Below, in pieces: positions 1 through 21,827 of a stretch of DNA of 22,218 bases. A program made the translations under genes and the position numbers. The stretch is from the IMG/VR virus record IMGVR_UViG_3300042261_001168, positions 1 through 22,218 of that record. One strand, given 5' to 3'. The DNA is from a virus. The first letter of the stretch is position 1, and each line of letters opens with the position of its first letter. The notes under the pieces were generated by a model. That model was not told where the DNA came from. It did no database searches and worked only from the letters and a program-made list of their open reading frames with translations.

Positions 1-100
1 CGGTGGAGGCCAATGCGTCGAGCGCCTCCAACACCGCTTCGCCGGCCTGGCAACGCCGGACCAGGGCGTCCAGCTCGCGGCGCAGTTGGTCAATGTCCAT
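1..100 (-). CDS. Start of a helical protein, runs off the window
   Basis: An ATG at 100 overlaps the previous stop by 11 bases and opens a frame of 33 residues to the left edge (MDIDQLRRELDALVRRCQAG and further). The visible part is charged and helical, probably a coiled coil. It extends the operon to at least four genes, but its role cannot be judged from this piece. Confidence 0.5.
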   Translation of the reverse strand, partial: MDIDQLRRELDALVRRCQAGEAVLEALDALAST

Positions 101-1358
101 CGTCCAGCCCTCCGGCGATGTTGATCGGGATGGCCCAGTCCTGTTCGATCGCCAGGCGCCGCTGCCAGGTCTGCACCTGCGCGGTGAATTCGTCGAGTTG
201 CCAGGCATCGAGGCCGTTCAACTGGGCCAGCAGGGTGGCATCGACCCGGTGGGCCTCCCGCAGCGCGGTTTCGAGGTCCGCAATCTCCTGCGCCAGGGCT
301 TCGCACTCGGCCGCGATCCCGGCCTCTTCCTCTGCCAGCCGGGGCATCCCGGCGGTGTCCGCGGCGGCCAGCACGAGGCGGTCCCGCAGGTGCCCGCGGA
401 CCTCTTCGGGGCGTAGATCCCGAGCCAACCGCTGGGCGAGGGCCGCTGGCGTAAAGGTATCCGGGTGGGCCCCGAGCAACCCGGCGGCGTCCGCCAGCAC
501 CGCATCGGCGGCCAGGGCCTCGCATTCATCGAGCAGCGCGCCGATGTCAGACTGGGTGCCGGCGCAGCGCGCAGCGCGCTGTCGCGCAAGTGCCGCCCGA
601 CGCTGTTCGAGGCGGTCTTCCAACGCAGTACAGCGTTGTCGCAGGGCGGCTTGCACCTGTTCCAGGCTCGTGCACTGGGCGTCGGCATCGGCCAGCGTCG
701 CCAGTTCCGTGGTCAATCGGGTGATCTCCGTGCGGGTGTCCACGTTGAGGTCGGTGCACTGCTGGTGGAGCTGGTCATGCAACCGGGCGACGAATTGACA
801 GAGGTCTCCGGCCATGGCTGGATCTCCCGCGGAGATCAGTATCCGATTGAATGCGGGGTTGGTTGTCGGCACCGATGGGTCCCCATGCGAGGTCACCTCC
901 CGCACCGACGGCACAACTGTGTCGGTACCGTCTGGGTCGGGCACCGCGCCACCCCAGGCACGCATCTCCGCATCGAGGGCGACAAGTTCCGACTGCAATT
1001 GCGTGATCTGCGCGGACAGCCGCCGGCAGTCGGCATCCAACTGCCGGAGCCGCTGTTCGACCGCTTGGCACTGGCCGTCCGCCCGCCTGGTCGCGAGTTG
1101 CCGGGCCAGCTCGTCACGCTCGTCCCGCAATGCGGCGAGGGCCGTGTCCAACCCGGTCGGGTCGATAATCGGGGCGAGCAACGCCGTGCGCAGCGCCTGC
1201 GCTTGCGCGGCGGGCAGCCAGGCCAACAGTACCCCCAACGCCCGCGCGACCGGCACCAACGCCGCGAGCCCGGAACCATGCACGGCCTGCTGGATCGCGA
1301 GGACCTGCTGTTGCGGCGACAGCGCCGCCCAGGCGCGCGCCTGCTCAGAGGGCCGCAT
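90..1358 (-). CDS. Long coiled-coil protein of unknown function
   Basis: A 422-residue protein starting MRPSEQARAWAALSPQQQVL at 1358, overlapping the previous gene by 14 bases; a longer frame to 1490 exists but would lie within that gene. After a helical domain with a hydrophobic helix (LVPVARALGVLLAWLPAAQA, residues ~34-53), there are three coiled-coil stretches: ~72-134 (RDERDELARQLATRR, LSAQITQLQSELVALDAEMR), ~195-262 and ~340-372. A less regular linker (~135-180) separates the first two. This resembles SMC/Rad50-type or scaffold coiled coils but has no ATPase motifs. It probably forms a complex with its operon neighbours. It overlaps the next gene by 11 bases. Confidence 0.55.
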   Translation of the reverse strand: MRPSEQARAWAALSPQQQVLAIQQAVHGSGLAALVPVARALGVLLAWLPAAQAQALRTALLAPIIDPTGLDTALAALRDERDELARQLATRRADGQCQAVEQRLRQLDADCRRLSAQITQLQSELVALDAEMRAWGGAVPDPDGTDTVVPSVREVTSHGDPSVPTTNPAFNRILISAGDPAMAGDLCQFVARLHDQLHQQCTDLNVDTRTEITRLTTELATLADADAQCTSLEQVQAALRQRCTALEDRLEQRRAALARQRAARCAGTQSDIGALLDECEALAADAVLADAAGLLGAHPDTFTPAALAQRLARDLRPEEVRGHLRDRLVLAAADTAGMPRLAEEEAGIAAECEALAQEIADLETALREAHRVDATLLAQLNGLDAWQLDEFTAQVQTWQRRLAIEQDWAIPINIAGGLDDGH

Positions 1359-2889
1359 CGACAAACTCCACGCAACTCGACCAGCGTTCACCACCGCGCA
1401 ATAGACGGTGTACCTCCCGAAGACCATCAGCCACCCCGGCGGCATCGGCGGGGCGCTCCAGCACCCGCAGGCGCTCGCTGAGGGCGCCATGAACCCGTCC
1501 TTGCAGACCAGCGAAGGCGTCGAAAGCCAAGCGTTGCTCCGGGGATGGCAGTCGATGGGTCAGGAACAGATAGAACACCGGGATGCCCTCGCGCCGGGAC
1601 CAGCGCAGATCCTCCAGCCAGGTCATGCTGCGCATACGCAGACCGCTACGCCGGCCCGGATAGCTGCGGATGGCCTCGAACTCCGGGGCATCGGGGTCAG
1701 GCGTCGGGGGGGAGTTGCCGACGAACAGCACCGCCCGCGCGCAATCGGTGGCTGGCGCCAAGGCCTCGCGGGCCAGGTGCAGGGCCTCATCGAGCGGGTC
1801 CCAGACATCCAGACCGGGCGAATAGGCAGCATCGGCGAACAATGCCCTCGCCCCGCCCACCGGCTGACGCCCCAACGACAGACAGGTTGCGCGGGGCAGG
1901 GTGACACCGGGCGGCGCGGCGAGCCCGTAGCGTTCCACATCGGTACAGGAAAAACCGTTGATAGAGAGATACTTGTCGGTTGCCAGGGCCCGCAGGGCAT
2001 CGGCCAACCCTGCCCTGATGTCCTGGTTGAAGTCTGGCCAATCCCGCCCGGAGGCGGCAGTGCCCTCTTTAGCGTAGGGGTCCGCCGCCAGTGGCAGCTG
2101 GCCGCGGGCCAGCAGCAGCGCTTGCGTCCAGGCGGACTGATCCGGACAGGTGCAGTCGAGGATGATCGCGAGTTCCAGCGGCACGCCGGTGGCGTTGTAC
2201 TGGGGCGCAACCGCACGGACCAGTCCGCCGCCGTCGCCGTGGTAGTCCAGGTGCCAGCGGATCGCCGCCTCATCGGTCTGGGTGAGGTCGATCCTGAGCC
2301 GACCGCGCGATGCTCCGCTGAGCGTAAACCAGGCCGTCTCGGGCAGCCCGGTTGCCCCATCCGGCACATCGAGACTGATGATCGCGCAGCAGTCATCGTC
2401 GATCTCAACATCCAGCGTGATCGGCAGATCGCGTAACGCCAGGTATCGCTCCTGGGCGCCGCGCAGGCGCACGCGGACATCCGCGGGGCCGACTGGTGGC
2501 ACCGTCTGGCACGGATCGAACCAGGCATCGCCATTGAGACTGAGACGCCCCTGTGCATCGCGCCGAACCGTAGATAAGTTGACCCGCGTGTCCAGTGCCA
2601 GGTCGTAAATCTGCGCGACTAACGAGGTCTGGTCATCCGTGGGCAGTTCGTCGAGCAGTAGCACGGCATGGCCGGGTGCCTGGCTGTTTAGCCAGCCCGC
2701 CAGATCCTCGGCACCATCTACGAGCTCAACGCGCAGCGGCGATGGACTCCAGGGGCACACCGAGACCTGGTGGCGCACCAGACCGCCCGGCCCCAGTTCC
2801 AGGATGCTGAAGCCGGAGGGACAATGGTCGAGGCACGCCCAGATGCCGAGGAGTTCCGTCATCAGAGCCGGGGGTGGTCGCCCGGTCAT
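1345..2889 (-). CDS. Protein with a von Willebrand factor A-like region
   Basis: A 514-residue protein; the ATG at 2889 overlaps the previous stop (ATGA), with a second possible start at 2862. Residues ~1-235 are beta-rich and unfamiliar (SGFSILELGPGGLVRHQVSV, GHAVLLLDELPTDDQTSL, YLALRDLPITLDVEIDDDC). Residues ~236-450 resemble a vWA/Rossmann-type fold: strand PLELAIILDCTCPD (242-250, in place of a DxSxS metal site), helix DIRAGLADALRALA, strand YLSINGFS, Asp364 in VWDPLDEALHLAREAL, then strand ARAVLFVGNSPP and IPVFYLFLTHRL. The metal site is degenerate, so binding may be lost. The C-terminus is helical. vWA proteins mostly act as scaffolds, often with AAA+ ATPases, but no ATPase is seen in the window. 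I give no specific function. Confidence 0.5.
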   Translation of the reverse strand: MTGRPPPALMTELLGIWACLDHCPSGFSILELGPGGLVRHQVSVCPWSPSPLRVELVDGAEDLAGWLNSQAPGHAVLLLDELPTDDQTSLVAQIYDLALDTRVNLSTVRRDAQGRLSLNGDAWFDPCQTVPPVGPADVRVRLRGAQERYLALRDLPITLDVEIDDDCCAIISLDVPDGATGLPETAWFTLSGASRGRLRIDLTQTDEAAIRWHLDYHGDGGGLVRAVAPQYNATGVPLELAIILDCTCPDQSAWTQALLLARGQLPLAADPYAKEGTAASGRDWPDFNQDIRAGLADALRALATDKYLSINGFSCTDVERYGLAAPPGVTLPRATCLSLGRQPVGGARALFADAAYSPGLDVWDPLDEALHLAREALAPATDCARAVLFVGNSPPTPDPDAPEFEAIRSYPGRRSGLRMRSMTWLEDLRWSRREGIPVFYLFLTHRLPSPEQRLAFDAFAGLQGRVHGALSERLRVLERPADAAGVADGLREVHRLLRGGERWSSCVEFVDAAL

Positions 2890-3782
2890 GGTAAGTCTCC
2901 ATTAGTGCCGTGATGAACGGAATTGGCTGCTGCCATAACCGCCCAATGCCCCCAGCCAGGTAGCGTGGCAAGGCGAGCCACCCAATCCGGACGAAGGGCT
3001 GCCAGGGCCGGTGGTGGTGGTGGGAGCGGTGGCAACAGTGAGTCGGCCAACAAGCGCCGGTAGACCGCCTCCAGCAGCGGCGCCTCCTCGGGCACCCGTT
3101 CCGGGCAGGCAAGCACGGGACGCACGATGTCGCGGGTTGGATGCAACAGGCCAACGAGGGCCAGGCGTTCGCGCACCGTCAGCGGCGGTGGCGGGCCGGT
3201 CTCGGCGCAGCCGGTGAGTTCGGCCGCGAGCCAGGGCAGCAACGGTGCGCGGATCACGTCGGACAGCAGGTCCATCACCTGCTCGCGCTCCTGGAGTGGT
3301 AGGGGTGCATACGCGCGTGCCATGACCTGATGGCAGGCAGCAGCGCTGTCCAGTGCGCCAGCGATCGATGCCAACGCAACAACGGAAGTGAGGGTGCGCA
3401 TCGCACGGGCCTGTATCACGGACTGGACCAACGTGACGTTGGCGGCGCCGCTCAGGATCTGTTCCAGCCAGCCGAGGAGCGCGTCACTAGGACCATCAGG
3501 CCAGCGGCGCCAGAAACGGGGCTCGGCAACCTGTAACGCGAGCAGAGGGGTCAGGGTTGGCTCCCAATCGCAAGGCGGCGCAGCTGGCGGTGCCGCCGCG
3601 GGATCGAGCAGGGCCAGTTGCTCGTCTGGCACCAGGCCCCGGCACAGCGCCAGCGGCGCGCCCGCCGCGATCAGTGCCACCAGTTCCCGCATCGTGACCA
3701 GGCCGGCGGCGTGCAAGCGCGGCAGGGCCGCGAGGGTTTGATTGTCGGGTTCGGTGCTTGGCACAAGCGCGCCGAACAGCAC
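2886..3782 (-). CDS. Unknown helical protein, possibly 5'-truncated by phage insertion
   Basis: The frame gives 298 residues from a GTG at 3782, but I see no ribosome binding site there. The frame stays open upstream to a TAA inside the repeat cluster (residues HWLRT precede the GTG). The beginning TVLFGALVPSTEPDNQTLAA reads like the middle of a protein. The product is mostly predicted helical, with Ala/Leu/Pro-rich segments, for example GLVTMRELVALIAAGAPLAL, VTLVQSVIQARAMRTLTSVV and PLLPWLAAELTG, plus a Pro run near the end. I recognise no domain or active site. It overlaps the next gene by ATGA, so the two are probably co-translated. It may be a host gene that lost its start when the phage inserted, or an intact gene with an unusual start. 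Confidence 0.55.
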   Translation of the reverse strand: MLFGALVPSTEPDNQTLAALPRLHAAGLVTMRELVALIAAGAPLALCRGLVPDEQLALLDPAAAPPAAPPCDWEPTLTPLLALQVAEPRFWRRWPDGPSDALLGWLEQILSGAANVTLVQSVIQARAMRTLTSVVALASIAGALDSAAACHQVMARAYAPLPLQEREQVMDLLSDVIRAPLLPWLAAELTGCAETGPPPPLTVRERLALVGLLHPTRDIVRPVLACPERVPEEAPLLEAVYRRLLADSLLPPLPPPPPALAALRPDWVARLATLPGWGHWAVMAAANSVHHGTNGDLP

Positions 3783-3795
3783 GGTGCGAAGCCAG

Positions 3796-3888
3796 TGTAG
3801 CCCGACGGATGATTTGCGACGAATTTACAGATGATTTGCGACAAATTCACACGCCCGTTTTTTTGTCGCAAATCATCTGTCGTTTGTC
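3796..3888. other. Repeat cluster, probable phage right end (transposase sites)
   Basis: Three copies of GATGATTTGCGAC: direct copies at 3808 and 3830 (22 bases apart, each followed by a G/A AATT) and an inverted copy at 3862-3877. Copies two and three form a perfect 19-base inverted repeat (3827-3845 and 3862-3880) with a 16-base loop. A partial fourth unit (GTTTGTC) follows at 3882-3888. The cluster lies right behind the last tail gene. Mu-type transposases bind 22-base sites placed next to each other at the phage right end, and the ends start with TG; a TG occurs at 3796 and also at 3864 in TGTCGCA. The other reading is an operator or a bidirectional hairpin between two operons. No T-run follows the hairpin on the coding strand. 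Confidence 0.5.
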
Positions 3889-3906: not shown

Positions 3907-5904
3907 CTAGGAGGTGGCTCGTGTGGTCGGGAACGGAAGATAAACGGCAACCTCGGTTTGGTCGCGCGCATACCATCTGCTTGTAGTATTATAAACGAAC
4001 GGACCTAGCTCCCAGTGCATGTACGACAGCAGACTGGACAGGTCTGTCACTGACTCTCCGTCATACCCGTAAAGGCTGTGAGGAGAAGCGTAAGTCGGAG
4101 GGTTTGGATAGCCGTACCGATCACCCAGCCACTCTTCATCAATATAAGGTTCGCTAAACCCATCGTTAGTCAGGCCGAGAATCAGACACGCTTTATCGTT
4201 CGCAACAGTGCTCGCCACATAAACGAAAGGTTCTGGTATTGTGGAGCCGCCAATTTCTGTAGTGAAGGTCATGTGTGAACCGGGCTCCCAATACATAGGA
4301 ACCGGAGTGTGCGAGGCCCCTTCGTACAGAGTCGACCCTTCTTGAGCGGTTGCTGACCAAATCAGCTCAGCCGTTGTTATTAGCCCGATAGCGGCAGACC
4401 TTACCCAGTGGTCTGTTATATTCATCCGCCCATACGTTGTCATAAGCCAATTATCGCTTCCACAATACGGGCGACCTTTCTCCTCCTTAGTTTCACTAAA
4501 ATCACTAAATGATGTTAAAAATTCACAGCCTGGTATATCAGTTGTGACCGTGGCTGAATTCACCCAGTAATTTCTATAATAATCGTACCAAACCCCTCCC
4601 GGGGTGTTCGAGTAGCGCGGAGAGTACCTGAGCACGGTCCCAGTTATACTGTCATGGTCGGCAGTTTTCTCGCTACTTCTTAACCACAGCCACTTTCCGC
4701 AGTTGTTACTTGGGTACTCTCTGTCCTCCTCGTTTCTTATCCATTCGTAGTTAGTGTTATCCGGTATAAGATTCACATAGGTTGTGCTCATTGCTACCGT
4801 ACTCCAGTCGTCCCAAAAGCACCCTTGAGAGTCGTGCGTCAAAGTTTCAAATGAGGTTTTTGCTCCAGGCCACGCCCAAAACGGGTCGCCAGACCGCCAC
4901 TCAGAGAATGGATGCGAGTACATGAGGTGATCGTTATAACGCCAGTACCCCACTGACCCGTCTAGGCTTAACTCGTGACTGTCGTGGGCCAATGGATCAA
5001 AGATGCCAAACTCCTGATCCCTTGCGGTTTCGTAAAACGGGATGCTTGACTCTACCCACTGACCGTTGTTGCGCGTCACGAAAGTAACATTATCCACCGT
5101 TTTTGGGTGGAAAGTTCGCACGACCCCGACCAACACTCCTTTCATGTACCAACAGAAGCCCGTCTCATAGGGCCAATCGGCTACCTGAGCAAACTCGCCA
5201 TCCCCTATCTTGCCGTAAACCGCTGAAGGATGGCTGGATGCATCGGCCTCATACCACATGCAGGCGGTGTAGTCGGTGCCTTGGTACTGGGTGCAGATGC
5301 CGTCGCGGTAGACACCGGTCGAGAAGGACGTGTCGCGGAACAGCCGCCAGGTCCCGACGGTGGCGATGAGGGTCCCGGCGACGATCCGGCTGGGGTTGGG
5401 TTCGAGGGTGTAGCCGGCTGGCAGGATGAAAAGTCCCGGCGTGGGTGGTGGCGGGGGCGGCGGCTCGATATAGGTGTAGCCGGTACAGCCATCGCTTGCC
5501 CAATGGCCTGGAGGTGGGAGCGTGGCGAAATTGGTCGGCGAGAGCGATGGGACTGGAGTCGGTTGCTCCTCGGCTTTGCAGGCGAGGAGGAAGTCACCCG
5601 GTTGGGTCGAGCGGATCGAGGGCTTGTCGACCAGCCGCACGGTGTGGTTGACCGCGCCAGCTCCGGACATCAGCTCGATGGTGAACCAGTCATAGCCGTG
5701 TGCTATGATGAAGGCTAGCGCGGTGTCGAGCTGGGCCGCGGCGAGGACAAACGTCAGGTCGAAGGTACGTAGGTGCTGGCGGTGCTTACGGCGTTGGCGC
5801 GGTTGTGGGGCGTCGAACGGGGTGCGGAGCAGGCCGGCGTCGATGGCGTACCCATAGCCGGATTCCTGCGGGGCGGGCAAGCCGGCGTCAGACCAGTCAC
5901 TCAT
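3907..5904 (-). CDS. Putative receptor-binding protein, swapped low-G+C C-terminus
   Basis: A 665-residue protein and the last gene of the late cluster; its start overlaps the previous stop (ATGA). Residues ~1-115 are a paralogue of the C-terminal domain of the previous gene and probably attach it to the tail. A Pro linker (residues ~148-156) and a short beta domain (FILPAGYTLEPNPSRIVAGT, then GTWRLFRDTSF) follow. From about residue 220, the DNA becomes clearly poorer in G+C: 22 of 60 bases at 4501-4560, compared with 46 of 60 at 6241-6300. This C-terminal part is rich in Trp and Tyr (for example WYMKGVLVGVV, YWRYNDHLMYSHPF, YDYYRNYWVNS). I recognise no family. The layout of a conserved anchor plus a foreign variable end fits a host-range protein. 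It ends at a TAG just before the repeat region. Confidence 0.65.
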   Translation of the reverse strand: MSDWSDAGLPAPQESGYGYAIDAGLLRTPFDAPQPRQRRKHRQHLRTFDLTFVLAAAQLDTALAFIIAHGYDWFTIELMSGAGAVNHTVRLVDKPSIRSTQPGDFLLACKAEEQPTPVPSLSPTNFATLPPPGHWASDGCTGYTYIEPPPPPPPTPGLFILPAGYTLEPNPSRIVAGTLIATVGTWRLFRDTSFSTGVYRDGICTQYQGTDYTACMWYEADASSHPSAVYGKIGDGEFAQVADWPYETGFCWYMKGVLVGVVRTFHPKTVDNVTFVTRNNGQWVESSIPFYETARDQEFGIFDPLAHDSHELSLDGSVGYWRYNDHLMYSHPFSEWRSGDPFWAWPGAKTSFETLTHDSQGCFWDDWSTVAMSTTYVNLIPDNTNYEWIRNEEDREYPSNNCGKWLWLRSSEKTADHDSITGTVLRYSPRYSNTPGGVWYDYYRNYWVNSATVTTDIPGCEFLTSFSDFSETKEEKGRPYCGSDNWLMTTYGRMNITDHWVRSAAIGLITTAELIWSATAQEGSTLYEGASHTPVPMYWEPGSHMTFTTEIGGSTIPEPFVYVASTVANDKACLILGLTNDGFSEPYIDEEWLGDRYGYPNPPTYASPHSLYGYDGESVTDLSSLLSYMHWELGPFVYNTTSRWYARDQTEVAVYLPFPTTRATS

Positions 5905-9366: not shown

Positions 9367-9878
9367 GTCCGGCGCACTCCCGGGAACTTGTCCACGCGGT
9401 AGACCTCGGTGGGAAACATGTGGTTCAGGATGTCGGAACGGCTCGCGGTCACCGAGACCCCCTGTTCTGTGATCGTCACCGAGGACAGGTAGAACTCGGT
9501 CCAGGGGTAGGACTGCGGCAGGGGGTCACCCTCTATATAAATGGAGTGGCGGCAGGAGACCGGGGACGATGGGTCTTGGATGGCCTGGTCCAGGAACGCC
9601 TTGGCCTCGCCCTGGATACCGCACCAGACGATACGCAGGTCCTGGTTGCCGCTATCGTCCAGGGTCGGCATCTCGATCTGGGCCGGGACCGGCAGGAACA
9701 GGACCATCGGTCCTTTGCCGTCGCCGTTGGTGTCGATGTCGACATACGCCTCGACCTCTTCATAGTGGTCGATCAGGTAGCGCGTGGTGGCCTTTGGATG
9801 CGACAGGATGAAGGCGTTGTGCCAGTCGATGGCGACTTCCGTGCTGTAGCGCTCCTGTAGCTCGGCGGAGAGGGTCAT
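9363..9878 (-). CDS. DUF1833-like minor tail protein
   Basis: A 171-residue protein between the tape measure and the NlpC/P60 gene. It contains SAELQERYSTEVAIDWHNAF, TTRYLIDHYEEVEAYVDI, then VLFLPVPAQIEMPTLDDSGN, DLRIVWCGIQGEAKAFLDQ and a closing TASRSDILNHMFPTEVYRVD with KFPGV. The layout of beta strands (ligand-like loop, 'flP...eiplp.lddsG..dl.i.w' and a final 'D.ln..fP...y....FPGl') corresponds to the DUF1833 family, which in many siphophages and prophages lies at this place in the tail-tip cluster. It probably forms part of the distal tail. The start overlaps the tape measure stop by one base and its end overlaps the next gene by four (ATGA). Confidence 0.65.
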   Translation of the reverse strand: MTLSAELQERYSTEVAIDWHNAFILSHPKATTRYLIDHYEEVEAYVDIDTNGDGKGPMVLFLPVPAQIEMPTLDDSGNQDLRIVWCGIQGEAKAFLDQAIQDPSSPVSCRHSIYIEGDPLPQSYPWTEFYLSSVTITEQGVSVTASRSDILNHMFPTEVYRVDKFPGVRRT

Positions 9879-12800
9879 CAGCGGCCCCTCCGCAGTCCTG
9901 GATAGGCGCCCTCGGCGGCCCGGGCTACGTCGGTACCCCCGCGGCGGAAATCGTCCGCGATCACGGCGCGGATGATGTCGATGGTGATGCCGCCCTGGCC
10001 GTCCGACTGGGTGCGCGCATCCTGCCCCGGGAGGTTGTTGACCGTGACGTTGACGGCCGGTTGGGCCAGTTGGGCCTTTACCCCCAGGTCACCACCGATG
10101 CGGGTGAGCGGCAGGATGGCCTCGGGGCCGGCCTCGCCCATCAAGCCGGTGCCCTGGGCGTAGCGATGATGGCCGGGGATGGCCAGCGGGAACAGGGTGG
10201 GGGCGGTGATGATGCCTTGACCGACCCCGGACAGCACGACCCCGCCCTGGGCGAAGCCAAAGAGACCCCCGAGCCATGAGCCGATGCCAGACATCGCCAT
10301 GGAGCCGGCCGCCTGGGCCGCACCGCTGGCAGGCGATGCACCGGAGACGCCAAAAGCGCTCTTCAGGGCATTGCCCACGGCCTCGGCGATCGGCTGGACG
10401 ATGAGGAGTTGAATCACGATCTGTTCGATCTGCTGGACCAGGGATTCCATCACGGAGCGGGCCGTGACGCCCCCTTGGGCCATCTGCCCGAACGCGTCGC
10501 CAAAGGCCCGGCCCATATCGCGGGCGGCATCGGCGACCCGATCGGTACTGTTCTGCATGTCGGCAATCCGCGCCTTGCTCGCGTCTTGCTCCCGGGCGGT
10601 ACTCCCCGCCTGGTCGATGATCCCCGCGCGGCGTTGCGTGATGGTGTCACGGGCGCGGGTATAGGCATCGACCTGGGTCATGTCAACCCGTTTGCCAGTC
10701 TGCACGGCGTCGAGCGCCGCGGCCCGCGCGGCTTCGGCCTGGCGGGTGTTGATCTCCAGGAGCTGGTTGTTGATCACCAGGGCGGCATTGGCGCGCGCCT
10801 GCTCCTCAGCGGTCTGGCTGAGTGACTGGCGTTGGTCGGTTAGGGAGCGGACGAAATCGTCTACCGGCTTGAGTGCCGCGGTATAGGCGTCGTCGGCCTG
10901 ATAGATGGCTTGCACGCCCGCCGCCAGGGCCTTGCGACTCTCCTCGACCCCTTGCGCCAACTCATCACGGAAAGCACGCCCACCCTGTTCGGCCAGCGGG
11001 ATCAGCTTATTCAGCGCCCACAGGGGGGATTTCTGGTCGGACTCATCGATATAGGCTTTCGTCTCGTCGGGGAGGGTGCCGCTTTGGGCCCGCGCAGGCC
11101 CCGCGTTGTAGGCCCAGAGGGCCTTGGGCAGGCTCCCGAATTGCTCCATGAGCCGGGCCAGATAGGAAGTGCCGGCCTCGATATTGGCCTTGGGGTCGGT
11201 CAGGATGGCTTGCGGATCGATCCCTAACCGGCCGCCCAGGTCCTTGGCCGTCGGCGGCGTGATCTGCATCAACCCCTTGGCCTTGCCGGAGTCGGCATTG
11301 GGCCGGAAGCGCGATTCGGCATTGATCACGGATAGGATCGCCTCGCGCGCCACGCCATAGCGCTGGGCCATCTCGTCGACGACCGGCAGGATATCGATCA
11401 GCGTCTGTTTTTGTGCCGCGCCCAGCTTGAGCACCGCGGCGACCCGGCTGGCATACTCCTCCAGCGTCGCTTCCTGGGCCTGTTGGGCCTTGGTGAGCTT
11501 ACCGGTTCCTTCCGCGGCGTCTAGGGTCACGGTCTTGAGCCAACGCAGTTGCTCGATGGCCTTCTCACGGGTGATGTCGCCCGCCGCCAGTTGGTTGTTG
11601 ACGACCTTAGCCCCGTCCGCAAAGTCACGCGCGGCCTTGTCCGACTTGTCGTATTGCTCCCGAACCTTTTGCCAGGCGGCGGCGGCACTGTCTTTGGCGG
11701 CCTGGGAGGCATCCTTGGCCCCACTGGTGACCCCGGCTTTGGCGGCGTCCTGAATCCGGCGAATCTCGGTTTCGACCTGGGTGAGCTGGGCGGTGGTGTC
11801 TTTGATCTCGGCCCGGACGACGGCCAGATCTCTGGAGGCGCCGGGCTTGATGCCCTCCCCTGGAAGGAGGTCTTGCAGGCGCTGGTTTTGCTGACCGAGT
11901 TGGCCTTTCAGGTCCATCCGCTGCCCGACCAGCTCGTTGAAGCGGTCTTGTTCGCTTCTTGCTGTCGAGACAAGCGGAGCGCCGGTCGCCGGGTCTTTCG
12001 TCAGGCGCATGGACGCCGGCGCCAGAGAACCGCTGAGGCGATCCCCCAGCACCTCAAGGCCAGCCGCGCCCAGGCTGGTATAGAACTGCCACATCTCCGA
12101 CAGCTTCAGCTTTTGATCGACCGCGGCAAACATCCGCTGAGCGGCATTCGCGAAGCGGCTTTCCTGTTGCTCCAACATCTGCGGGATTTCGGCAAACTTG
12201 GGTCGCAGGTCGGCAAACAACTCCTGGAAGGCGGCGGCCACCACCGCGGAGGTGAGTTGGCCCTGCTCGCCGAGCTTTTTCAGTGATTCATTGGTGCCGA
12301 GGATGCGCTGGATGATCTTTTCGAGCTGGACGCCCAGCCCGCCGGCATTCTGGGCAATGACGGTGAGTTCATCGCCATTCAGCACACCACCCGAGAGGGC
12401 CTGTCCGAGTTGGAGTGTCACCGCGGCGGCGGCCTGGCCCTGCACCCCATAGACGCGCATGGCGCTGGTCAGGTCGGTGGCGAACTGGATCGAGTCTTTG
12501 AAACCGAGCCCGACCTTGCTGAGGGCAGGCACAAACTGATTGAGCTGGTCACGGGCATCCGTCAGTCCGATGCCCAGTTTCTGGGCGTACTGATAGAGAT
12601 CCTGGAAGCCCCCGGCATTGCCTGAGAGTTGCTTGATGGAGGTGCCCATGGAGCGCAGGCTATCCCCGGTCAGCCCGATCTGGCGGATGGCCATAGCCAG
12701 CCCGGTCACGCCCGCCCCGGCGGCCAAGCCTTTCAGCTCATCACTCATGGCGCCGAGCAGTTGCCCGGTCTCCTTGGCCTGTTTGCCAAGCTGTTTGGTC

Positions 12801-12883
12801 GAGTCCTCAACTCGTCGAATACCCGTTACTGCCGCCGAACCGTCGGCATTGATGCGGATCGCGAGTGTCATGTCACCGGCCAT
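9878..12883 (-). CDS. Tail tape measure protein with lytic transglycosylase domain
   Basis: A 1001-residue protein with a strong ribosome binding site (GGGGAGG, five bases before the ATG). Residues ~1-230 form the tape measure N-terminal domain (GLAMAIRQIGLTGDSLRSMG..., ALSGGVLNGDELTVIAQNAG), as in the family with a conserved 'Gel.geElr.l.e.apg' motif. Helical segments follow (~300-480). Residues ~505-612 are an SLT (soluble lytic transglycosylase) domain: catalytic Glu523 in INAESRF, GLMQI at 537-541 and AYNAG at 591-595. Further coiled coils run to ~770, hydrophobic helices lie around 800-880, and the end has GLMGEAGPEAILPLTR (~913-928), the usual tape measure C-terminus. It sets tail length, and the enzyme domain probably opens peptidoglycan during DNA entry. 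Its stop overlaps the next start (TGATG). Confidence 0.92.
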   Translation of the reverse strand: MAGDMTLAIRINADGSAAVTGIRRVEDSTKQLGKQAKETGQLLGAMSDELKGLAAGAGVTGLAMAIRQIGLTGDSLRSMGTSIKQLSGNAGGFQDLYQYAQKLGIGLTDARDQLNQFVPALSKVGLGFKDSIQFATDLTSAMRVYGVQGQAAAAVTLQLGQALSGGVLNGDELTVIAQNAGGLGVQLEKIIQRILGTNESLKKLGEQGQLTSAVVAAAFQELFADLRPKFAEIPQMLEQQESRFANAAQRMFAAVDQKLKLSEMWQFYTSLGAAGLEVLGDRLSGSLAPASMRLTKDPATGAPLVSTARSEQDRFNELVGQRMDLKGQLGQQNQRLQDLLPGEGIKPGASRDLAVVRAEIKDTTAQLTQVETEIRRIQDAAKAGVTSGAKDASQAAKDSAAAAWQKVREQYDKSDKAARDFADGAKVVNNQLAAGDITREKAIEQLRWLKTVTLDAAEGTGKLTKAQQAQEATLEEYASRVAAVLKLGAAQKQTLIDILPVVDEMAQRYGVAREAILSVINAESRFRPNADSGKAKGLMQITPPTAKDLGGRLGIDPQAILTDPKANIEAGTSYLARLMEQFGSLPKALWAYNAGPARAQSGTLPDETKAYIDESDQKSPLWALNKLIPLAEQGGRAFRDELAQGVEESRKALAAGVQAIYQADDAYTAALKPVDDFVRSLTDQRQSLSQTAEEQARANAALVINNQLLEINTRQAEAARAAALDAVQTGKRVDMTQVDAYTRARDTITQRRAGIIDQAGSTAREQDASKARIADMQNSTDRVADAARDMGRAFGDAFGQMAQGGVTARSVMESLVQQIEQIVIQLLIVQPIAEAVGNALKSAFGVSGASPASGAAQAAGSMAMSGIGSWLGGLFGFAQGGVVLSGVGQGIITAPTLFPLAIPGHHRYAQGTGLMGEAGPEAILPLTRIGGDLGVKAQLAQPAVNVTVNNLPGQDARTQSDGQGGITIDIIRAVIADDFRRGGTDVARAAEGAYPGLRRGR

Positions 12884-14733: not shown

Positions 14734-15192
14734 TTAAACCTCTTGATACATGTGTGGGCAGGTCGACAGGCCCCGCTCGGCAGCGTAGCTGTCGATCCAA
14801 GTGAATACAGGGGGCTCGATGCTGAGCAACTGACCGCGCTGATAGAGCACCGGCCCCCAGTCCGCGGAGGGTCGCAGCCCTTCCAGCAGGTCGTAGACGG
14901 CCCGGCGATAGGTGCCGATCAGCGCCAACGCGCTCACATCCGCGGCGGCGAGCTGCTCCACGCTGAACAGGATGTCGAACGTCGAGGTCAGGGTCCGTCC
15001 CGCGGTCCGGCCCGGGGGACCGGCCATCGTGCTGCTGGTGGGCACCACCGACAGGGTGGGATAGTTCAGGATGACCTGCCCGGGTTGCGACCGCCGGGGG
15101 GAGCCGAGTACCTGCACCTGCCGCACCGGGTGGGCGGGCAGGCTCAGCAACGGCGTCAGGACGGTGACCACCCAGGCCGGGTCCAGGAACAT
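14734..15192 (-). CDS. Mu gp37-like protein (DUF1834), probable tail terminator
   Basis: A 152-residue protein directly behind the gp36-like gene, the expected gp37 position. It has a beta strand-rich first half (RQVQVLGSPRRSQPGQVILN, YPTLSVVPTSS), then TLTSTFDILFSVEQLAAADV, a helix (RRAVYDLLEGLRPSADWGPV) and an end containing FTWIDSYAAERGLST. The helix followed by 'gLRPs..wgPVlyqrGqLlsie' resembles the DUF1834/gp37 family, whose members are thought to cap the tail tube next to the head. Together with the gp36-like gene it is the best evidence for a Mu-type head-tail joint. The assignment rests on pattern and order; no catalytic residues are expected. Confidence 0.55.
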   Translation of the reverse strand: MFLDPAWVVTVLTPLLSLPAHPVRQVQVLGSPRRSQPGQVILNYPTLSVVPTSSTMAGPPGRTAGRTLTSTFDILFSVEQLAAADVSALALIGTYRRAVYDLLEGLRPSADWGPVLYQRGQLLSIEPPVFTWIDSYAAERGLSTCPHMYQEV

Positions 15193-15689
15193 CAGCCCAT
15201 CCCCGCCAAGGTGTCGGCCGTCACCAGCCGTTCAGCGGCCTGATAACGGATCGCTGACGGGGTGCTGACGGCCGGTAAACCGAGCGTCAAGGCCCCGTCG
15301 CGCAGGGCCGCCAGCGTCTTGCGCGCGGTCGCGGCCCGACGTATCCAGCCGGCGAAGGGGCCGCTCGGGTCCCCATGGCGAGCGCCCAGCATGTCCTCCA
15401 GGGCCAGCCCGACCGCGGCCGAGCGCACGATCGCCGGTACCGGGTCCAGTCCGTTGGGCCAGCGCGCGGCCAGATGGCCATCGGTGATCGCGTTAGCCTC
15501 GGCACAGGCCCGCGCCAGGCGCTCCACGGCCAGGGTGGTGGCTGGGTCGGCGGCGGCCGGGTCGGCCACGGCGGTGCGCAGTTGCGCCCCGGAGACCGGC
15601 TCCCAGTCGGTGGGGCCGGCCAGACCCGCCAGCAGATTCAGGTCGTTTTCGGACGCCACCAGGTCGGCCGGGGTGCACCAGGGGGTCAT
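15192..15689 (-). CDS. Mu gp36-like head-tail protein (DUF1320)
   Basis: A 165-residue protein beginning MTPWCTPADLVASENDLNLL. DUF1320/gp36 proteins of Mu-like phages typically start with a short (Y/W)CTPADL motif and have a central run of helices in which a residue such as Asp/Glu precedes 'ANAITDGHLAARWPNGLDPV'; here this reads ARACAEANAITDGHLAARWP, then VPAIVRSAAVGLALEDMLGA. The family sits between capsid and gp37 and is thought to help form the head-tail connector. This copy is distanced from the capsid gene by four inserted genes. Its start overlaps the previous stop (ATGA) and its stop overlaps the next start (TGATG). Confidence 0.75.
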   Translation of the reverse strand: MTPWCTPADLVASENDLNLLAGLAGPTDWEPVSGAQLRTAVADPAAADPATTLAVERLARACAEANAITDGHLAARWPNGLDPVPAIVRSAAVGLALEDMLGARHGDPSGPFAGWIRRAATARKTLAALRDGALTLGLPAVSTPSAIRYQAAERLVTADTLAGMG

Positions 15690-15967
15690 ACGTCCTCCGG
15701 ATGAGGGGTGAGGGGAGAGGAGTGAGGAGTGAGCGCCGGCCGCGCGTACGGCGTGCCGGTCAGCAACCAGTGCAGGTCCACCGTCAGCGTCCCCGCCCGT
15801 ACCGCGGTGACGATCGCGCCATAGGGCACATGGCCATCGCGGCGGCAGTCGCGCGGGGTTAGCGGGTCAAGGCCCAGTCGGTCGGCCAGGACGGCATCCG
15901 AGTAGATACCGCACGCCAGGCGTAGCCGGTCGAGCACCGCATGGGGCCGGCGCGTCCGCCCGCTCAT
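15686..15967 (-). CDS. Small CI-repressor-type helix-turn-helix protein
   Basis: A 93-residue protein; the start at 15967 forms ATGA with the previous stop. Residues ~9-72 (HAVLDRLRLACGIYSDAVLA, then DRLGLDPLTPRDCRRDGHVP, YGAIVTAV and LHWLLTG) match the layout of the phage CI repressor DNA-binding domain family (PF07022). In that family a helix-turn-helix is followed by a G-x-VPY element and ends in a DWLLTG-like motif. It lacks the C-terminal peptidase/dimerisation domain of full CI repressors. The last ~14 residues (LTPHSSPLTPHPEDV) are translated low-complexity CTCAC repeat. A DNA-binding regulator inside a structural operon is unusual; alternatively the fold may have been reused in a structural or adaptor role. 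The gp36-like gene starts in its stop codon (ATGA). Confidence 0.6.
   Translation of the reverse strand: MSGRTRRPHAVLDRLRLACGIYSDAVLADRLGLDPLTPRDCRRDGHVPYGAIVTAVRAGTLTVDLHWLLTGTPYARPALTPHSSPLTPHPEDV
15705..15733. repeat. CTCAC/GTGAG low-complexity repeat inside a coding region
   Basis: A short tract of GTGAGG and GAGGAG words, the same kind as at 20692-20777. Here it forms the 3' end of the CI-like gene and encodes the repeated peptide LTPHSSPLTPH. Confidence 0.55.
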
Positions 15968-16287
15968 GGCGTACCTGCCAGGGTGCGCTGCGCCGCCAAG
16001 GGCGCGGCGCGCTGCACGATCCAGGACAGGGGCGCTTGCAGGTCCGGGGGCGCCAGGCTGGGCGCGGTACAGAGACACTGCCGGTACAGCTCGCCGTCGG
16101 CCCCTTCATAGGGTTGGCGACACGAGCAGGCTTGGCGCCATTCCTGGCCCTCTGGGGCCGGTTCTAGGGTGCGGGCGGAGTTGTCCGTATTGAGGGTACG
16201 CCACGCCAGCGCCTCGCCCGTCGGGGGCAGGGCCGCGGCCACGCCGGGGAGCGCCAGGGCGAGCAGGATCATGGGGGCTAATCTCAT
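15964..16287 (-). CDS. Small secreted protein with two CxC motifs
   Basis: A 107-residue protein of unknown function. The ATG at 16287 overlaps the previous stop as ATGA; a longer frame to 16329 would read through the palindromic repeat and is less likely. Residues 1-19 (MRLAPMILLALALPGVAAA) form a clear Sec-type signal peptide with no lipobox cysteine at the cleavage site, so a periplasmic or secreted product is expected. The mature part has exactly four cysteines, arranged as CSC (residues 54-56) and CLC (71-73), which suggests two disulfides or a small metal site. It sits between the fibre partner and the CI-like gene. An envelope-acting phage factor (for example superinfection exclusion or spanin-like) is possible, but nothing in the sequence proves it. 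Confidence 0.55.
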   Translation of the reverse strand: MRLAPMILLALALPGVAAALPPTGEALAWRTLNTDNSARTLEPAPEGQEWRQACSCRQPYEGADGELYRQCLCTAPSLAPPDLQAPLSWIVQRAAPLAAQRTLAGTP

Positions 16288-16922
16288 ACGGGGGACTCCA
16301 GTAGGGTACGCTCGGCGTACCCTACACACTCAGGGTCAGCGGGTGGATCGTCCGCCGGCGGCTCGGCCGGCGGCGGTTCAGGCGGTGTTTCAGGTGCCGG
16401 GGCCGGTACGGCCGCGGCCAGTTGGGCCATGACATGGGGCGTTGCGCCGGCCTGGAACAGGGCGTCCAGTTGCGCCTCGCTCCACCCCAAGGCCGCGCCC
16501 AGCACCGCGATGGCCGGCGACGTACGCGGAAACACCGTGCTCGTGGTCCAGGCCAGGCGTACCAGGTCGGGGGTCGCCGGGTCGGCCATCAGGGCTTCGA
16601 CGGCCGTGAGCTGGCCGGTCGCCAGCAAGGCCGCCCGCGCCTCGAAGGGGCCGAGGACGGCGGTCTCGCGCCATTGGCGGAGCCGTTCCGCGGCGCGCTC
16701 CTCGGGGGTGCCCAGGGCGTAGGCGACGGCCACCTCCCGTCCGGCGCGGGTCTCGACCACCGGCGCGGCATAGCCCAAGGGGGCCTGGGCCGGGTCAGCG
16801 GGGTCGTGGATCAGTTCCACCTGGCCCTCGTCCCGCAGGGCCTCCCAGTAGCCGCGCGGGGCGTCCGGATCGGCCGGTGGCGGCGGGGCCGGCGTCCCGG
16901 CGGGCAAACGATAGAGGTCCAT
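16284..16922 (-). CDS. Probable fibre partner/assembly protein (XkdW-like pattern)
   Basis: A 212-residue protein starting 3 bases after the fibre-like gene. It begins with a Pro-rich segment, then RGYWEALRDEGQVELIHDPADP, and has a helical middle, AAERLRQWRETAVLGPFEAR followed by LLATGQLTAVEALMADPATP and ALGWSEAQLDALFQAG. This pattern (a helix, then a 'tlveal..lp' type segment, then 'alGlteaqlDaLF') is common in small proteins next to tail fibre genes and is sometimes labelled XkdW-like or tail assembly chaperone. The role is inferred mainly from position. A low-complexity Pro/Glu/Asp tail (EPPPAEPPADDPPADPECV) follows. The final residues (about VGYAERTL) are encoded by the palindromic repeat at 16301-16325, which suggests that the original C-terminus was altered by insertion of that repeat. 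Confidence 0.5.
   Translation of the reverse strand: MDLYRLPAGTPAPPPPADPDAPRGYWEALRDEGQVELIHDPADPAQAPLGYAAPVVETRAGREVAVAYALGTPEERAAERLRQWRETAVLGPFEARAALLATGQLTAVEALMADPATPDLVRLAWTTSTVFPRTSPAIAVLGAALGWSEAQLDALFQAGATPHVMAQLAAAVPAPAPETPPEPPPAEPPADDPPADPECVGYAERTLLESPV
16301..16325. repeat. REP-like palindrome, copy 2, inside a coding region
   Basis: It has the same perfect arms as the copy at 21803-21827 (GTAGGGTACGC and GCGTACCCTAC), here around a TCG loop. It lies within the last codons of the 212-residue gene and just upstream of the next start codon at 16287, so the hairpin could also hide or expose that start in the mRNA. Confidence 0.8.
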
Positions 16923-16925
16923 AGA

Positions 16926-19700
16926 TCAATCCACCTGCGGATATACATAGACGCTACAGGACAGCCCCCGGCCCGGATCGCCCACCGCCCCGGTATCGAC
17001 CCAGGGGTCGGACACCACCTGCCAGCGGTGGTTGTCATATAAATTGATCCAATAATCGCCGACGGTGCCGCTGTAGGGCAGTTCGGATGCAATCGCGACG
17101 GAGCCGGCGAAGTTGACACCGAGATCCGTCCAGGTGCTGCCCGTCCACTGATACGTGCGCTTGGTATCGAGGACGGCCACCTTGCCACCGACCGCGGGCG
17201 GATTACTGGTGGGCAGCGCGGCGTAGGTCGAGACCGCGCCGGACCAATAGATATCAATGAGGGACCACACCTGGGTGCGGACCCACTTGTGCATATTGGC
17301 GGTCACGACCAGGCACAGGCCAATCGGCGTCAGGGTCGAGGCGGGTAGCTCGCCGACCGTCGGGATCATCTGACACTGATGATCGCCGGGAGCGCTCAGG
17401 ATCTTCATCGTGTAGGGGCCACGGAGCGCGATCGCAACGGGGTCGGCGAGCGTCTCGGGGGTGCCCGGCAGGGTGGAGGTGCCACCCGCCACGATCCGCG
17501 GATTCTGCCCGCTGGGATAGACCGAGGCGGCCGGAGAACCGGCCCACAGGTCGAGCACGATATCCCCGCCCACCGGCGCCGATTGGACATCACAGACCAT
17601 GCCGGCGAGCAGCCCGGCGATCGGGCTGCGCAGCGTCATGGAGCTGGTGAAGGGCACCGCGCGATCGTCGATGCCCCACACGAATTCACTCACCCAGTAG
17701 ACGTGGCTGTTCAGTAGCTCACGATCATGGGTGGTCTGCACGCGATCGGCCGCCGTCGCCGCCACGGCCTCAGCGAGGGCCGCGGCATCCAGCCCGCGTT
17801 GGTCGAGGTCCGCGGCCACGCCGGTGGTGGTCACGACATCCAACCCGGTCTGCACCCGGTCGGCGGCGGTGGCCGCGACGTCCAGGCCGGTCTGCACCCG
17901 ATCCGCCGCGGTCGCGGTCGTGTCCACACCGGTCTGCACCCGATCCGCGGCGGTGGCGGCGACATCCTGGCCGGTCTGGGTGCGGTCCAACCCGGTCTGC
18001 ACCCGATCCGCCGCCGTCGCGATCGCGTCCGCGCCGGTCTGCACCCGATCCGCCGCCGTGGCGGCGACATCCTGGCCGGTCTGGGTCCGGTCCAACCCGG
18101 TCTGCACCCGATCCGCCGCCGTGGCGGCGACATCCTGGCCGGTCTGAGTGCGATCCGCACGGGTCTGGACCCGATCGGCCGCGGTCGCCGCGGCGTCCAG
18201 TACCGTCTGTGCCCGGTCCGCGGCCGTGGCCTGGGCATACTGCCCGCTCTGCACCCGGTCGGCGGTGGTGGTCTGGGCATCCGCTCCGGTCTGCACCCGA
18301 TCGGCCGCGGTAGCGATCGCGTCCAGGCCGGTCTGCGTGCGATCCGCCCCGGTCTGCACCCGATCCGCCGCCGTGGCCTGGGCATCCAGGCCGGTCTGGG
18401 TGCGATCCGCCCCGGTCTGGACCCGATCGGCCGCCGTTGCCGCGACCGCCGCGGCCAGGGCCTCCGCATCCAACCCGCGCTGGTCGAGGTCGGCCGCCAC
18501 CGCATTGGCCGTGACCACATCCGCCCCGGTCTGTAGGCGATCCGCCGCGGTCGCCGCGGCATCCTGTCCGGTCAGCACCCGATCCGCCTCGGTCTGCACC
18601 CGGTCGGCCGCGGTGGCCTGGGCGTCCAGGCCCGTCTGGGAGCGCTCCAACCCGGTCTGCACCCGATCGGCGGCGGTCGCCGTGGCATCCAACCCGGTCT
18701 GGGTCCGATCCGCCCCGGTCTGTGCCCGGTCGGCCGCGGTGGCTTGGACATCCAACCCGGTCTGGGCGCGGTCCGCCCCGGTCTGCACCCGGTCAGCCGC
18801 CGTCGCCGCGACCGCCGCGGCCAGGGCCTCCGCATCCAACCCGCGCTGGTCGAGGTCGGCCGCTACGGCATTGGCCGAGACCACATCCGCCCCGGTCTGC
18901 TCCCGATCGGCCGCCGTGGCCTGGGCATCCTGCCCGGTCTGTACCCGATCCGCCCCGGTCTGTACCCGGTCGGCCGCCGTGGCCTGGGCGTCCAGGCCCG
19001 TCTGGGTCTGATCCAAGCCGGTCTGCACCCGATCGGCGGCGGTCGCCGTGGCATCCAAGCCGGTCTGGGTCCGATCCGCTTCGGTCTGTACCCGGTCGGT
19101 CGCGGTGGCCTGAGCATCCAACCCGGTCTGGGCGCGATCCGCCCCGGTCTGCACCCGATCCGCCGCGGTGGCCTGGGCGTCCAGGCCGGTCTGGGTGCGA
19201 TCCAACCCGGTCTGCACCCGGTCGGCCGCGGTGGCTTGGGCATCCAACCCAGTCTGGGTGCGGTCGGCCTGGATCGCCGCGATCAGTTCCTCGACCAGGG
19301 TCGCCCCAAGGATCTCCTGGGCCGCCACCAGGTCGCGCAATTCTTGCACGCCCGGTGCGTCGGCCACCTGCACCCGGTAGGTCTCGGACCCGCCGGGCCA
19401 TTGCAGCACGATCTTGTACCAGGTCGCCCCGCCCCCCGGGAGCGCCAGGGCGTCCTGCGGGGCCAGGGTCAGCGTCAGCCCCGCGCTCGGCACCTCCAGG
19501 GTGCTGTATTCGGTGGCGAGCTGGGTACTGTTGAAGGCGATCGCCGGGTTTCCCGCCGTATCCACCAGCCGCACGCTGGCGCGCACCCCCCCCAGCCGGC
19601 CGGCGCCGGTACTGGGGGCCGGCAAGTGCACCTGGGCCGGCCAGGCGGGCGCCGCCCCGAGCAGGGCGGCGAGCAGCAGGCAGGAGCGGCGGGCACGCAT
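16926..19700 (-). CDS. Secreted fibre-like protein with long heptad-repeat shaft
   Basis: A 924-residue protein. The chosen ATG lies 4 bases after the capsid stop and opens with a convincing signal peptide (MRARRSCLLLAALLGAAPAW, cleavage near residue 22). A longer frame to 19787 exists but only by overlapping the capsid gene. Residues ~25-120 look like a small beta domain (RLVDTAGNPAIAF, WYKIVLQWPGGSETYRVQV), as seen at the start of many tail fibres. Residues ~146-656 are 7-residue repeats of the ADRVQTG / ADRTQTG / LDAQATA kind, which should form a long alpha-helical trimeric coil. Residues ~660-924 form a globular tip, with TYAALPTSNPPAVGGKVAVL and YQWTGSTWTDLG, a pattern common in fibre tips. 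Its place in the head cluster and its signal peptide are both odd for a tail fibre; a head fibre or an envelope-displayed protein is possible. Confidence 0.7.
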   Translation of the reverse strand: MRARRSCLLLAALLGAAPAWPAQVHLPAPSTGAGRLGGVRASVRLVDTAGNPAIAFNSTQLATEYSTLEVPSAGLTLTLAPQDALALPGGGATWYKIVLQWPGGSETYRVQVADAPGVQELRDLVAAQEILGATLVEELIAAIQADRTQTGLDAQATAADRVQTGLDRTQTGLDAQATAADRVQTGADRAQTGLDAQATATDRVQTEADRTQTGLDATATAADRVQTGLDQTQTGLDAQATAADRVQTGADRVQTGQDAQATAADREQTGADVVSANAVAADLDQRGLDAEALAAAVAATAADRVQTGADRAQTGLDVQATAADRAQTGADRTQTGLDATATAADRVQTGLERSQTGLDAQATAADRVQTEADRVLTGQDAAATAADRLQTGADVVTANAVAADLDQRGLDAEALAAAVAATAADRVQTGADRTQTGLDAQATAADRVQTGADRTQTGLDAIATAADRVQTGADAQTTTADRVQSGQYAQATAADRAQTVLDAAATAADRVQTRADRTQTGQDVAATAADRVQTGLDRTQTGQDVAATAADRVQTGADAIATAADRVQTGLDRTQTGQDVAATAADRVQTGVDTTATAADRVQTGLDVAATAADRVQTGLDVVTTTGVAADLDQRGLDAAALAEAVAATAADRVQTTHDRELLNSHVYWVSEFVWGIDDRAVPFTSSMTLRSPIAGLLAGMVCDVQSAPVGGDIVLDLWAGSPAASVYPSGQNPRIVAGGTSTLPGTPETLADPVAIALRGPYTMKILSAPGDHQCQMIPTVGELPASTLTPIGLCLVVTANMHKWVRTQVWSLIDIYWSGAVSTYAALPTSNPPAVGGKVAVLDTKRTYQWTGSTWTDLGVNFAGSVAIASELPYSGTVGDYWINLYDNHRWQVVSDPWVDTGAVGDPGRGLSCSVYVYPQVD
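17733..19265 (-). repeat. 21-base-phase coding repeat (ADRVQTG heptads)
   Basis: This is the part of the fibre-like gene that encodes residues ~146-656. The DNA repeats words such as CCGGTCTG and GATCCGCC many times with third-position variation, in a 21-base (heptad) phase often grouped as two or three heptads. A longer element (VVTANAVAADLDQRGLDAEA and the following residues) occurs three times: near residues 271 and 393, then in a changed form near 620. The first two copies are nearly identical in DNA and exactly 366 bases apart, which points to a recent segmental duplication. Confidence 0.9.
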
Positions 19701-19704
19701 GGCG

Positions 19705-20670
19705 TCAGGCGATGATGTTGTTGAGGGTGTACTTGGCCACGGCGTACTGCACGAACAGGCAATAGTCGTTGCGCACCCGCACTGCATCCGCGCGGCGTGG
19801 TTCGTCGCGGTAGGTCTCGACCGTCAGCATGTCCGCGGCGCCGCCGGTCCACAGGATGGTGCGGCCCCAGCAGGGTTCCAGCGCATTGGTCGAGCCATTG
19901 CTCAGGCGCAGCAGATGGACATAGGCCGGGTTCCAGATGTCCGCCAGCACGGCGGCCTTGTTCTTCTGGGTGGTGTCCTTCATGCCCCCCGCCACCAGGA
20001 TCTGATCGACCCCCAGATAGGCCGCCATGGCCGCGCGCTGCGCCTCGAAACCACCCATCTGGATGGGGGCGGTGTACTGAAGCGCGGTCTTCACCTCGGT
20101 GGTGTTCACCAGCGCCCAGAAGGCGGTCAGGCTCATGGCCAGGGCATTGGGCAGCAGCCCGGAGGCGGTGCGGAAGGCGGCCTTGGCGGTGTCGATATCG
20201 GCCTTGGGGGTCGCGGTCGCGGCGGTATTCCAGGGCACGGCCGCGGCGTTGTCGACCGACGCGATGGCCAGGTCCGCGACCCGGCGCTCATGGGCCATCA
20301 GGATCTGATCGGTCACGGTGTCGGTGGTGGCCTGTTCGACCTCGATCACGGTGCTATAGAGGGCGCGCAGCCGGTCATCGATATAACCGACCAGACCGCG
20401 GTCTTCGGTATCGAAGCTGGACATCTCGAAGCGCCAGTCGATCTCGTTGTAATGCCCGCCGGCGCCGCGCGCATCGTCGACCGCCTTCAGGCCCACGTCC
20501 TTCGGGATGCGCGGGAACTTGGCGGAACTGATGGCCGAACGGAACAGCGGCAGCACTTGCAGCCCGATATGGCCGGCCGCGGCCGAACCGAGCAGGCGCT
20601 CATAGGCCACCACCCCGAGATCATGACGGAGTTCGGCCACACTGGCGGTCGTGGAGGGAGAGACGGGCAT
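19705..20670 (-). CDS. Major capsid protein
   Basis: A 321-residue protein with the features of phage major capsid proteins (HK97 fold expected). It has an N-terminal arm, a central stretch FDTEDRGLVGYIDDRLRALY followed by a long helix (VIEVEQATTDTVTDQILMAH), a middle domain with VPWNTAATATPKADIDTAKAAF, and a C-terminal end ETYRDEPRRADAVRVRNDYC followed by AVAKYTLNNII. The last block is typical of capsid proteins in Mu-like and related prophages: a final strand with Arg-rich contacts, then a closing helix. An AGGAG ribosome binding site lies five bases before the ATG, one of the clearest in the window, as expected for the most abundant phage protein. The next gene starts 4 bases after its stop. 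Confidence 0.8.
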   Translation of the reverse strand: MPVSPSTTASVAELRHDLGVVAYERLLGSAAAGHIGLQVLPLFRSAISSAKFPRIPKDVGLKAVDDARGAGGHYNEIDWRFEMSSFDTEDRGLVGYIDDRLRALYSTVIEVEQATTDTVTDQILMAHERRVADLAIASVDNAAAVPWNTAATATPKADIDTAKAAFRTASGLLPNALAMSLTAFWALVNTTEVKTALQYTAPIQMGGFEAQRAAMAAYLGVDQILVAGGMKDTTQKNKAAVLADIWNPAYVHLLRLSNGSTNALEPCWGRTILWTGGAADMLTVETYRDEPRRADAVRVRNDYCLFVQYAVAKYTLNNIIA

Positions 20671-21802: not shown

Positions 21803-21827
21803 GTAGGGTACGCAAGGCGTACCCTAC
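21803..21827. repeat. REP-like palindrome, copy 1
   Basis: A perfect hairpin with arms GTAGGGTACGC and GCGTACCCTAC around a 3-base loop (AAG). It lies in the 68-base gap between the protease/scaffold stop and the decoration gene start. A second copy with the same arms and loop TCG is at 16301-16325. Short palindromes of this type are usually dispersed chromosomal repeats of the host. It could also fold in the mRNA and reduce transcription into the decoration gene. No T-run follows it, so it is not a standard terminator. Confidence 0.8.

Follow-up and report, generated by a model that had tools for sequence, protein, structure and literature searches.

A 924-residue fibre protein encoded in the head gene cluster of a Mu-like phage begins with a predicted Sec-type signal peptide (SP), as do three related fibres. 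What stood out most in the initial annotation, that a phage fibre encoded beside the capsid gene should carry such a signal, holds up, and a signal of this kind recurs in three relatives. The window (the whole stretch of DNA analysed, an IMG/VR record of 22,218 bases) comes from a Mu-like phage of an uncultured bacterium. Mu-like head genes lie on its minus strand in the order Mu I-type protease (end), scaffold-like protein, major capsid protein and fibre, followed by two proteins that we call P2 and P3, an HTH-like ORF, a Gp36-like connector, a tail terminator-like protein and the tail tube. The features of this region are as follows:

19705..20670, minus strand: major capsid protein (PHROG major head protein phrog_1005, E 2.2e-34)
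16926..19700, minus strand: SP-bearing fibre gene, 924 aa, ATG at 19700, stop at 16926-16928
19644..19700, minus strand: Sec-type signal peptide, residues 1-19, cut predicted between A-P-A and W, alternative after A22
19308..19634, minus strand: N-terminal beta domain, residues 23-131, 109 aa, which also heads SP-less phage fibres (HMM relatives)
17730..19268, minus strand: heptad shaft, residues 145-657, ADRVQTG / LDAxATA type, tandem repeats of 21-nt multiples
16929..17717, minus strand: C-terminal tip, residues 662-924, 75% identical to the fibre tip of the relative L003, four conserved Cys
16284..16922, minus strand: P2, fibre-companion protein, 212 aa, no SP (phrog_6034, E 2.7e-9; 71% to L003)
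15964..16287, minus strand: P3, 107 aa, own SP (score 7.97), four conserved Cys (CxC...CxC), 57% to L003
15686..15967, minus strand: HTH/repressor-like ORF in the late head operon (phrog_2328, E 1e-3 for a longer ORF), with 4-nt overlaps on both sides
15192..15689, minus strand: Mu Gp36-like head-tail connector after the fibre module (PF07030, E 2e-9)

The ORF was confirmed at 924 residues directly after the phrog_1005-matching capsid gene, as initially annotated, with 4 nt between the capsid stop and the fibre ATG. The subsequent stop-to-start distances are equally tight (fibre-P2 3, P2-P3 −4, P3-HTH −4 and HTH-connector −4 nt). Because such short gaps tie the fibre module to capsid and connector, it is probably expressed late, most likely carried on the late head transcript, and this coupling argues against a lysogen-only surface protein. 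A sigma-70 consensus scan of the fibre block, which has little power in high-GC DNA, found no promoter; this result and the short gaps give no support to a stand-alone moron equipped with a promoter and terminator of its own. A clear Shine–Dalgarno site is absent before the ATG at 19700. Codon 24, a GTG, is a conceivable start downstream of the SP, and initiation at 19787, an in-frame ATG within the capsid gene, would leave the SP buried. Given the 4-nt coupling and the relatives, we favour ATG 19700 as the fibre start.

The fibre N-terminus (MRARRS-CLLLAALL-GAAPA, with WPAQ after the predicted cut) has the n-, h- and c-regions of a signal peptide with an AxA-type cut, and reaches 8.5 on a home-made n/h/c-region score. 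Such an ad hoc score would pick up certain membrane anchors as well; the hydrophobic cores of the SPs studied here are short, roughly 8-14 residues, like those of cleavable signals. When calibrated on E. coli K-12, the score gave 6.2-8.6 for 22 of 23 exported proteins (one lipoprotein was unscored) and a maximum of 7.45 among 52 cytoplasmic proteins, the fibre falling inside the OmpF/OmpA range. None of 1000 shuffles of the fibre N-terminus attained 8.5, and all window genes other than the fibre and P3 scored <4.3. The background consisted of 120 phage contigs selected by the heptad motif and nothing else. Five of their 973 ORFs of at least 100 aa reached 7.9, two of them in the relative L003/L032; at a length of at least 350 aa, only 1 of 286 did so, namely the L003/L032 fibre, and the P3 of the same relative is one of the other four. 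The shuffles and the 973-ORF background together rule out a chance alanine-rich start. The L003 contig is the only one of about 120 heptad-matched contigs with an SP-bearing fibre, so heptad fibres do not in general carry an SP. The Sec-type signal peptide that had been proposed is borne out by these scores and by the three relatives that also have one, and we consider Sec export of the fibre likely from its sequence.

The four SP-bearing fibres (window, L003, L014 and L144) were found via homology of their N-domain or tip and not via the SP. Their SPs are all unlike in sequence, yet each combines a charged n-region with a short h-region and an AxA-type cut. In L003, the tip is 75% identical to that of the window fibre and the N-terminus is unrelated, yet headed by an SP (score 8.18), whose start overlaps the preceding stop; the heptad stretch is short and the gene context unlike that of the window. 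L014 has the window-type N-domain with an SP in a fibre that is cut by the contig end, Mu F-like and virion-morphogenesis genes lie just upstream, and a start codon is absent at the beginning of the N-domain. The L144 fibre is an annotated prophage gene, WP_157818051.1, from a Mu-like and perhaps decayed prophage on plasmid pTs417 of Ca. Thiodictyon syntrophicum. Its N-domain is 42.7% identical to that of the window (E 3e-8), its SP scores 8.2, and collagen repeats with PHROG tail-fibre matches follow the N-domain. The gene is annotated from the GTG of the SP, which overlaps the previous stop; only a TTG is present at the domain start.

The initial annotation had asked whether relatives keep the SP, and had counted relatives starting past the hydrophobic segment against its reading. 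Both kinds exist: the SP is kept in L014, L144 and, on a new N-terminus, L003, whereas N-domain fibres of the L005 group, L098, L062 and L039 lack it and start exactly at the domain. The L005 group fibre occupies the same locus as that of the window, between capsid and connector genes with P2 next, and the L098 fibre bears a classic tail-fibre tip. Since these N-domain relatives are SP-less, the SP is not universal and, judged by sequence, is an add-on gained or lost by an otherwise ordinary virion-type fibre. Bootstrap values of 39-88 make the N-domain tree too weak to count gains and losses. Fibre genes recur in Mu-like head clusters (L005, L014, L033 and L144), and three of the four SP fibres lie in such clusters. 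No useful match was found in GenBank phages searched with the N-domain, major capsid protein, tip and L014 fibre, and scans of genome contigs with the tip and with the N-domain gave no match. At 4350-5714 of L033, a reverse transcriptase (RVT_1, E 7.5e-14), likely part of a diversity-generating retroelement, lies beside a heptad fibre in the head cluster; phage target proteins of such elements are reported to lack signal peptides (PMC6199706).

Downstream of the SP, the protein is built like a phage fibre. The N-domain, whose HMM matches the L005, L098, L062 and L039 fibres, was modelled by AlphaFold (pLDDT 78) as a beta domain followed by a helix. The best Foldseek match in the PDB was the cyanophage Pam1 tail machine (E 0.06), and matches in BFVD (RcapNL, LIT1, phi673 and phCDa; probability 0.75-1.0, E 0.001-0.3) were fibre, tail or uncharacterised phage proteins, those to fibre or tail proteins reaching probabilities of 0.97-1.0 with E above 1e-3; at these weak E-values the model is suggestive of a structural likeness to phage fibre and tail proteins. 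The initial estimate of about 510 heptad residues and a coil of about 75 nm agrees with the 513 residues and ∼76 nm measured here if the shaft is fully helical (1.485 Å per residue). It contains zero proline and three register changes, and its hydrophobic periodicity peaks at 3.5 residues with a power of 5.4 versus at most 0.4 at other tested periods. The heptad motif is common to about 100 phage fibres, and by sequence the array amounts to a phage fibre shaft of the ordinary kind. A known fold is lacking for the tip (AlphaFold model pLDDT 32), and its four cysteines are invariant between window and L003. Mature SP-bearing fibres contain 4, 4, 4 and 6 cysteines.

The tip (75% identity), P2 (71%) and P3 (57%) recur together in L003, where, as in the window, P2 and then P3 follow the SP fibre. 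A P2 homologue also follows a tail fibre gene in phage Motura. The P3 N-terminus, MRLAPMILLALALPGVAAALPP, contains no Cys and hence no lipobox, and comparison of P3 with solved structures gave chance matches only. A small second SP-bearing protein is encoded downstream of the fibre in the window and L003 (P3 in both) and in L144, as the third gene (16171-16488; SP score 7.17). The latter is apparently truncated and has a LamG-like or lectin-like segment by eye, for which a Pfam search gave no match.

Several other observations concern the window at large. A REP-like palindrome with arms GTAGGGTACGC / GCGTACCCTAC is present in two copies, at 16301-16325 and 21803-21827 (4 arms found versus 0.2 expected); one copy adds to the 3′ end of P2 a tail that is absent from L003 P2, and the second separates the protease gene from the scaffold gene. 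At 3805-3880, TTTGTCGCAAATCATCTGT occurs three times with at most 2 mismatches, twice direct and once inverted (0 expected), and these sites likely represent a transposable-phage (transposase) end, as judged from their sequence. On account of these end-like sites, bases 1 to ∼3790 probably belong to the host and flank the phage, which would then be a transposable prophage in its integrated state. Three probable host genes at 90-3782 (445-466, 514 and 298 aa; no convincing Pfam match) could identify the host. GC content drops to 50% at 4001-5000, towards the distal end of the last tail gene (3907-5904), versus 63-66% in the neighbouring kilobases, as if the C-terminal part of that gene were newly acquired. 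The tape measure protein (9878-12883) has an embedded SLT transglycosylase domain.

Searches of the literature returned no match for a recurring module of SP fibre and SP partner, and several known systems share parts of it. The window fibre resembles tailed-phage fibres in its attachment-type N-domain, coiled repetitive shaft and C-terminal tip, and in its adjoining companion gene; it differs in its Sec-type SP, in its place in the head cluster and in the second exported protein that follows. To our knowledge, tailed-phage fibres are taken to be cytoplasmic, and ordinary ones lack an export signal. The scaffold is ordinary and its export putative. Phage T5 encodes an exported blocker, Llp, directly downstream of its receptor-binding protein pb5 (PMC9586334). 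Like Llp and Cor of T1/phi80, P3 would be a small, Cys-containing exported protein beside a putative receptor-binding fibre (PMC9586334); unlike them, it has no lipobox Cys, it shows no sequence match to them, and here the fibre itself bears an SP. PblA and PblB are tail adhesins of a streptococcal phage that act on the cell surface (PMC4508584, PMC3675006), and an SP is predicted for pneumococcal PblB (PMC4508584). Like the window fibre, they are phage tail or fibre proteins that combine a coiled coil with internal repeats, and action at the cell surface would be a further likeness; but they belong to Gram-positive siphophages, reach the surface via lysis in S. mitis, and show no sequence relation to it. 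The candidate head filament protein of phiCbK, gp76, is described as a long repeat-rich fibre near head genes, but is glycine-rich, 2799 aa long and equipped with a ConA-like domain, and an SP is unmentioned in the part of that report available to us (PMC3556154).

We tentatively favour a reading, to which we give somewhat less than an even chance for export and role together, in which a virion-type fibre belongs to a late-expressed, Sec-exported module that blocks receptors at lysis. The architecture, the SP-like start and its recurrence, the gene coupling and the conserved cysteines are observed. An attachment-like N-domain, heptad shaft and receptor-type tip would have been rerouted to the Sec pathway, and the fibre would be made late on the head-gene transcript, alongside cytoplasmic P2 and exported, cysteine-bearing P3. 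It would then cross the inner membrane, lose its SP and trimerise in the periplasm, where the tip cysteines could pair, and would build up there until lysis; since neither a secretion partner nor an anchor for the outer membrane was seen, it would be confined to the periplasm before then. On release, the fibre might coat tip-recognised receptors on envelope fragments and neighbouring cells, sparing progeny from debris and surviving lysogens from re-infection, with P3 as a helper or second blocker. Export, cleavage, trimerisation, periplasmic folding, release at lysis and the receptor-blocking role are what we infer from these observations. We favour receptor blocking because the tip sits at the receptor-binding tip position, because a second exported protein is encoded alongside, and because T5 places its exported blocker Llp beside its receptor-binding protein (PMC9586334). 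Against it speak the SP-less N-domain relatives, so that the basic fibre needs no export, and the lack of a lipobox in P3, unlike Llp.

Alternatively, the hydrophobic start might not be used for export, either because translation begins at GTG 24 or because this stretch serves a normal head or tail fibre as a peptide that binds the capsid or touches the membrane. The SP-less L005 and L098 fibres begin where GTG 24 aligns, the ATG at 19700 is without a clear Shine–Dalgarno site, and the upstream codons are rich in GC and alanine. However, at the start of the domain L014 offers no initiation codon and L144 only a TTG, the L144 gene being annotated from the SP GTG that overlaps the previous stop; furthermore, the n/h/c pattern is kept in four unlike sequences and occurs in only 1 of 286 large background phage ORFs. 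The recurrence and this background make the head fibre with a misleading hydrophobic start, one of two roles initially suggested, less likely, and we assign the unused start as a whole a low probability. We likewise think it unlikely that the fibre is a virion component matured in the periplasm (folding, disulfides) that joins heads or tails via its N-domain at lysis. Such a route would fit an N-domain typical of SP-less phage fibres, including the one with the L098 tail-fibre tip and that at the L005 post-capsid locus, as well as the mostly fibre and tail proteins among the Foldseek matches, the even cysteine counts of the mature SP-bearing fibres and expression from the late operon. It sits less well with P2, whose lack of an SP would be odd for the folding partner of a periplasmic fibre, and we are aware of no precedent for such fibre assembly in a tailed phage, which also counts against it. 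That there are tailed phages whose Sec-exported, disulfide-folded fibre is loaded onto virions or envelope only at lysis seems rather unlikely to us; if true, such extracytoplasmic loading would break the rule of wholly cytoplasmic tailed-phage virion assembly.

The other role initially suggested, in which the lysogen displays the fibre on its envelope, finds little support. A prophage-encoded surface adhesin acting in lysogenic conversion, displayed on or released around the lysogen, would account for the SP and the second exported protein, and could draw on the HTH gene within the same block, the precedent of PblA/PblB fibres as cell adhesins, one PblB having a predicted SP (PMC4508584, PMC3675006), and the L144 third gene, which looks lectin-like by eye (without a Pfam match). 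Against this, stop-start coupling binds the module to capsid and connector, the sigma-70 scan, weak for high-GC DNA, finds no promoter, and neither a YadA-type nor another outer-membrane anchor was detected, so that we hold this adhesin to be distinctly improbable. An autotransporter or YadA adhesin in particular is rejected: a C-terminal membrane anchor was not detected, no Pfam family matching at E up to 1.

For annotation, these results are a warning against dismissing every SP predicted on a fibre gene as a mistake. That phage fibres repeatedly bear an export signal, accompanied in three cases by a second protein with such a signal, hints at extracytoplasmic assembly or at a function away from the virion, and suggests that the fibres of a small group of phages may act outside the cell interior.
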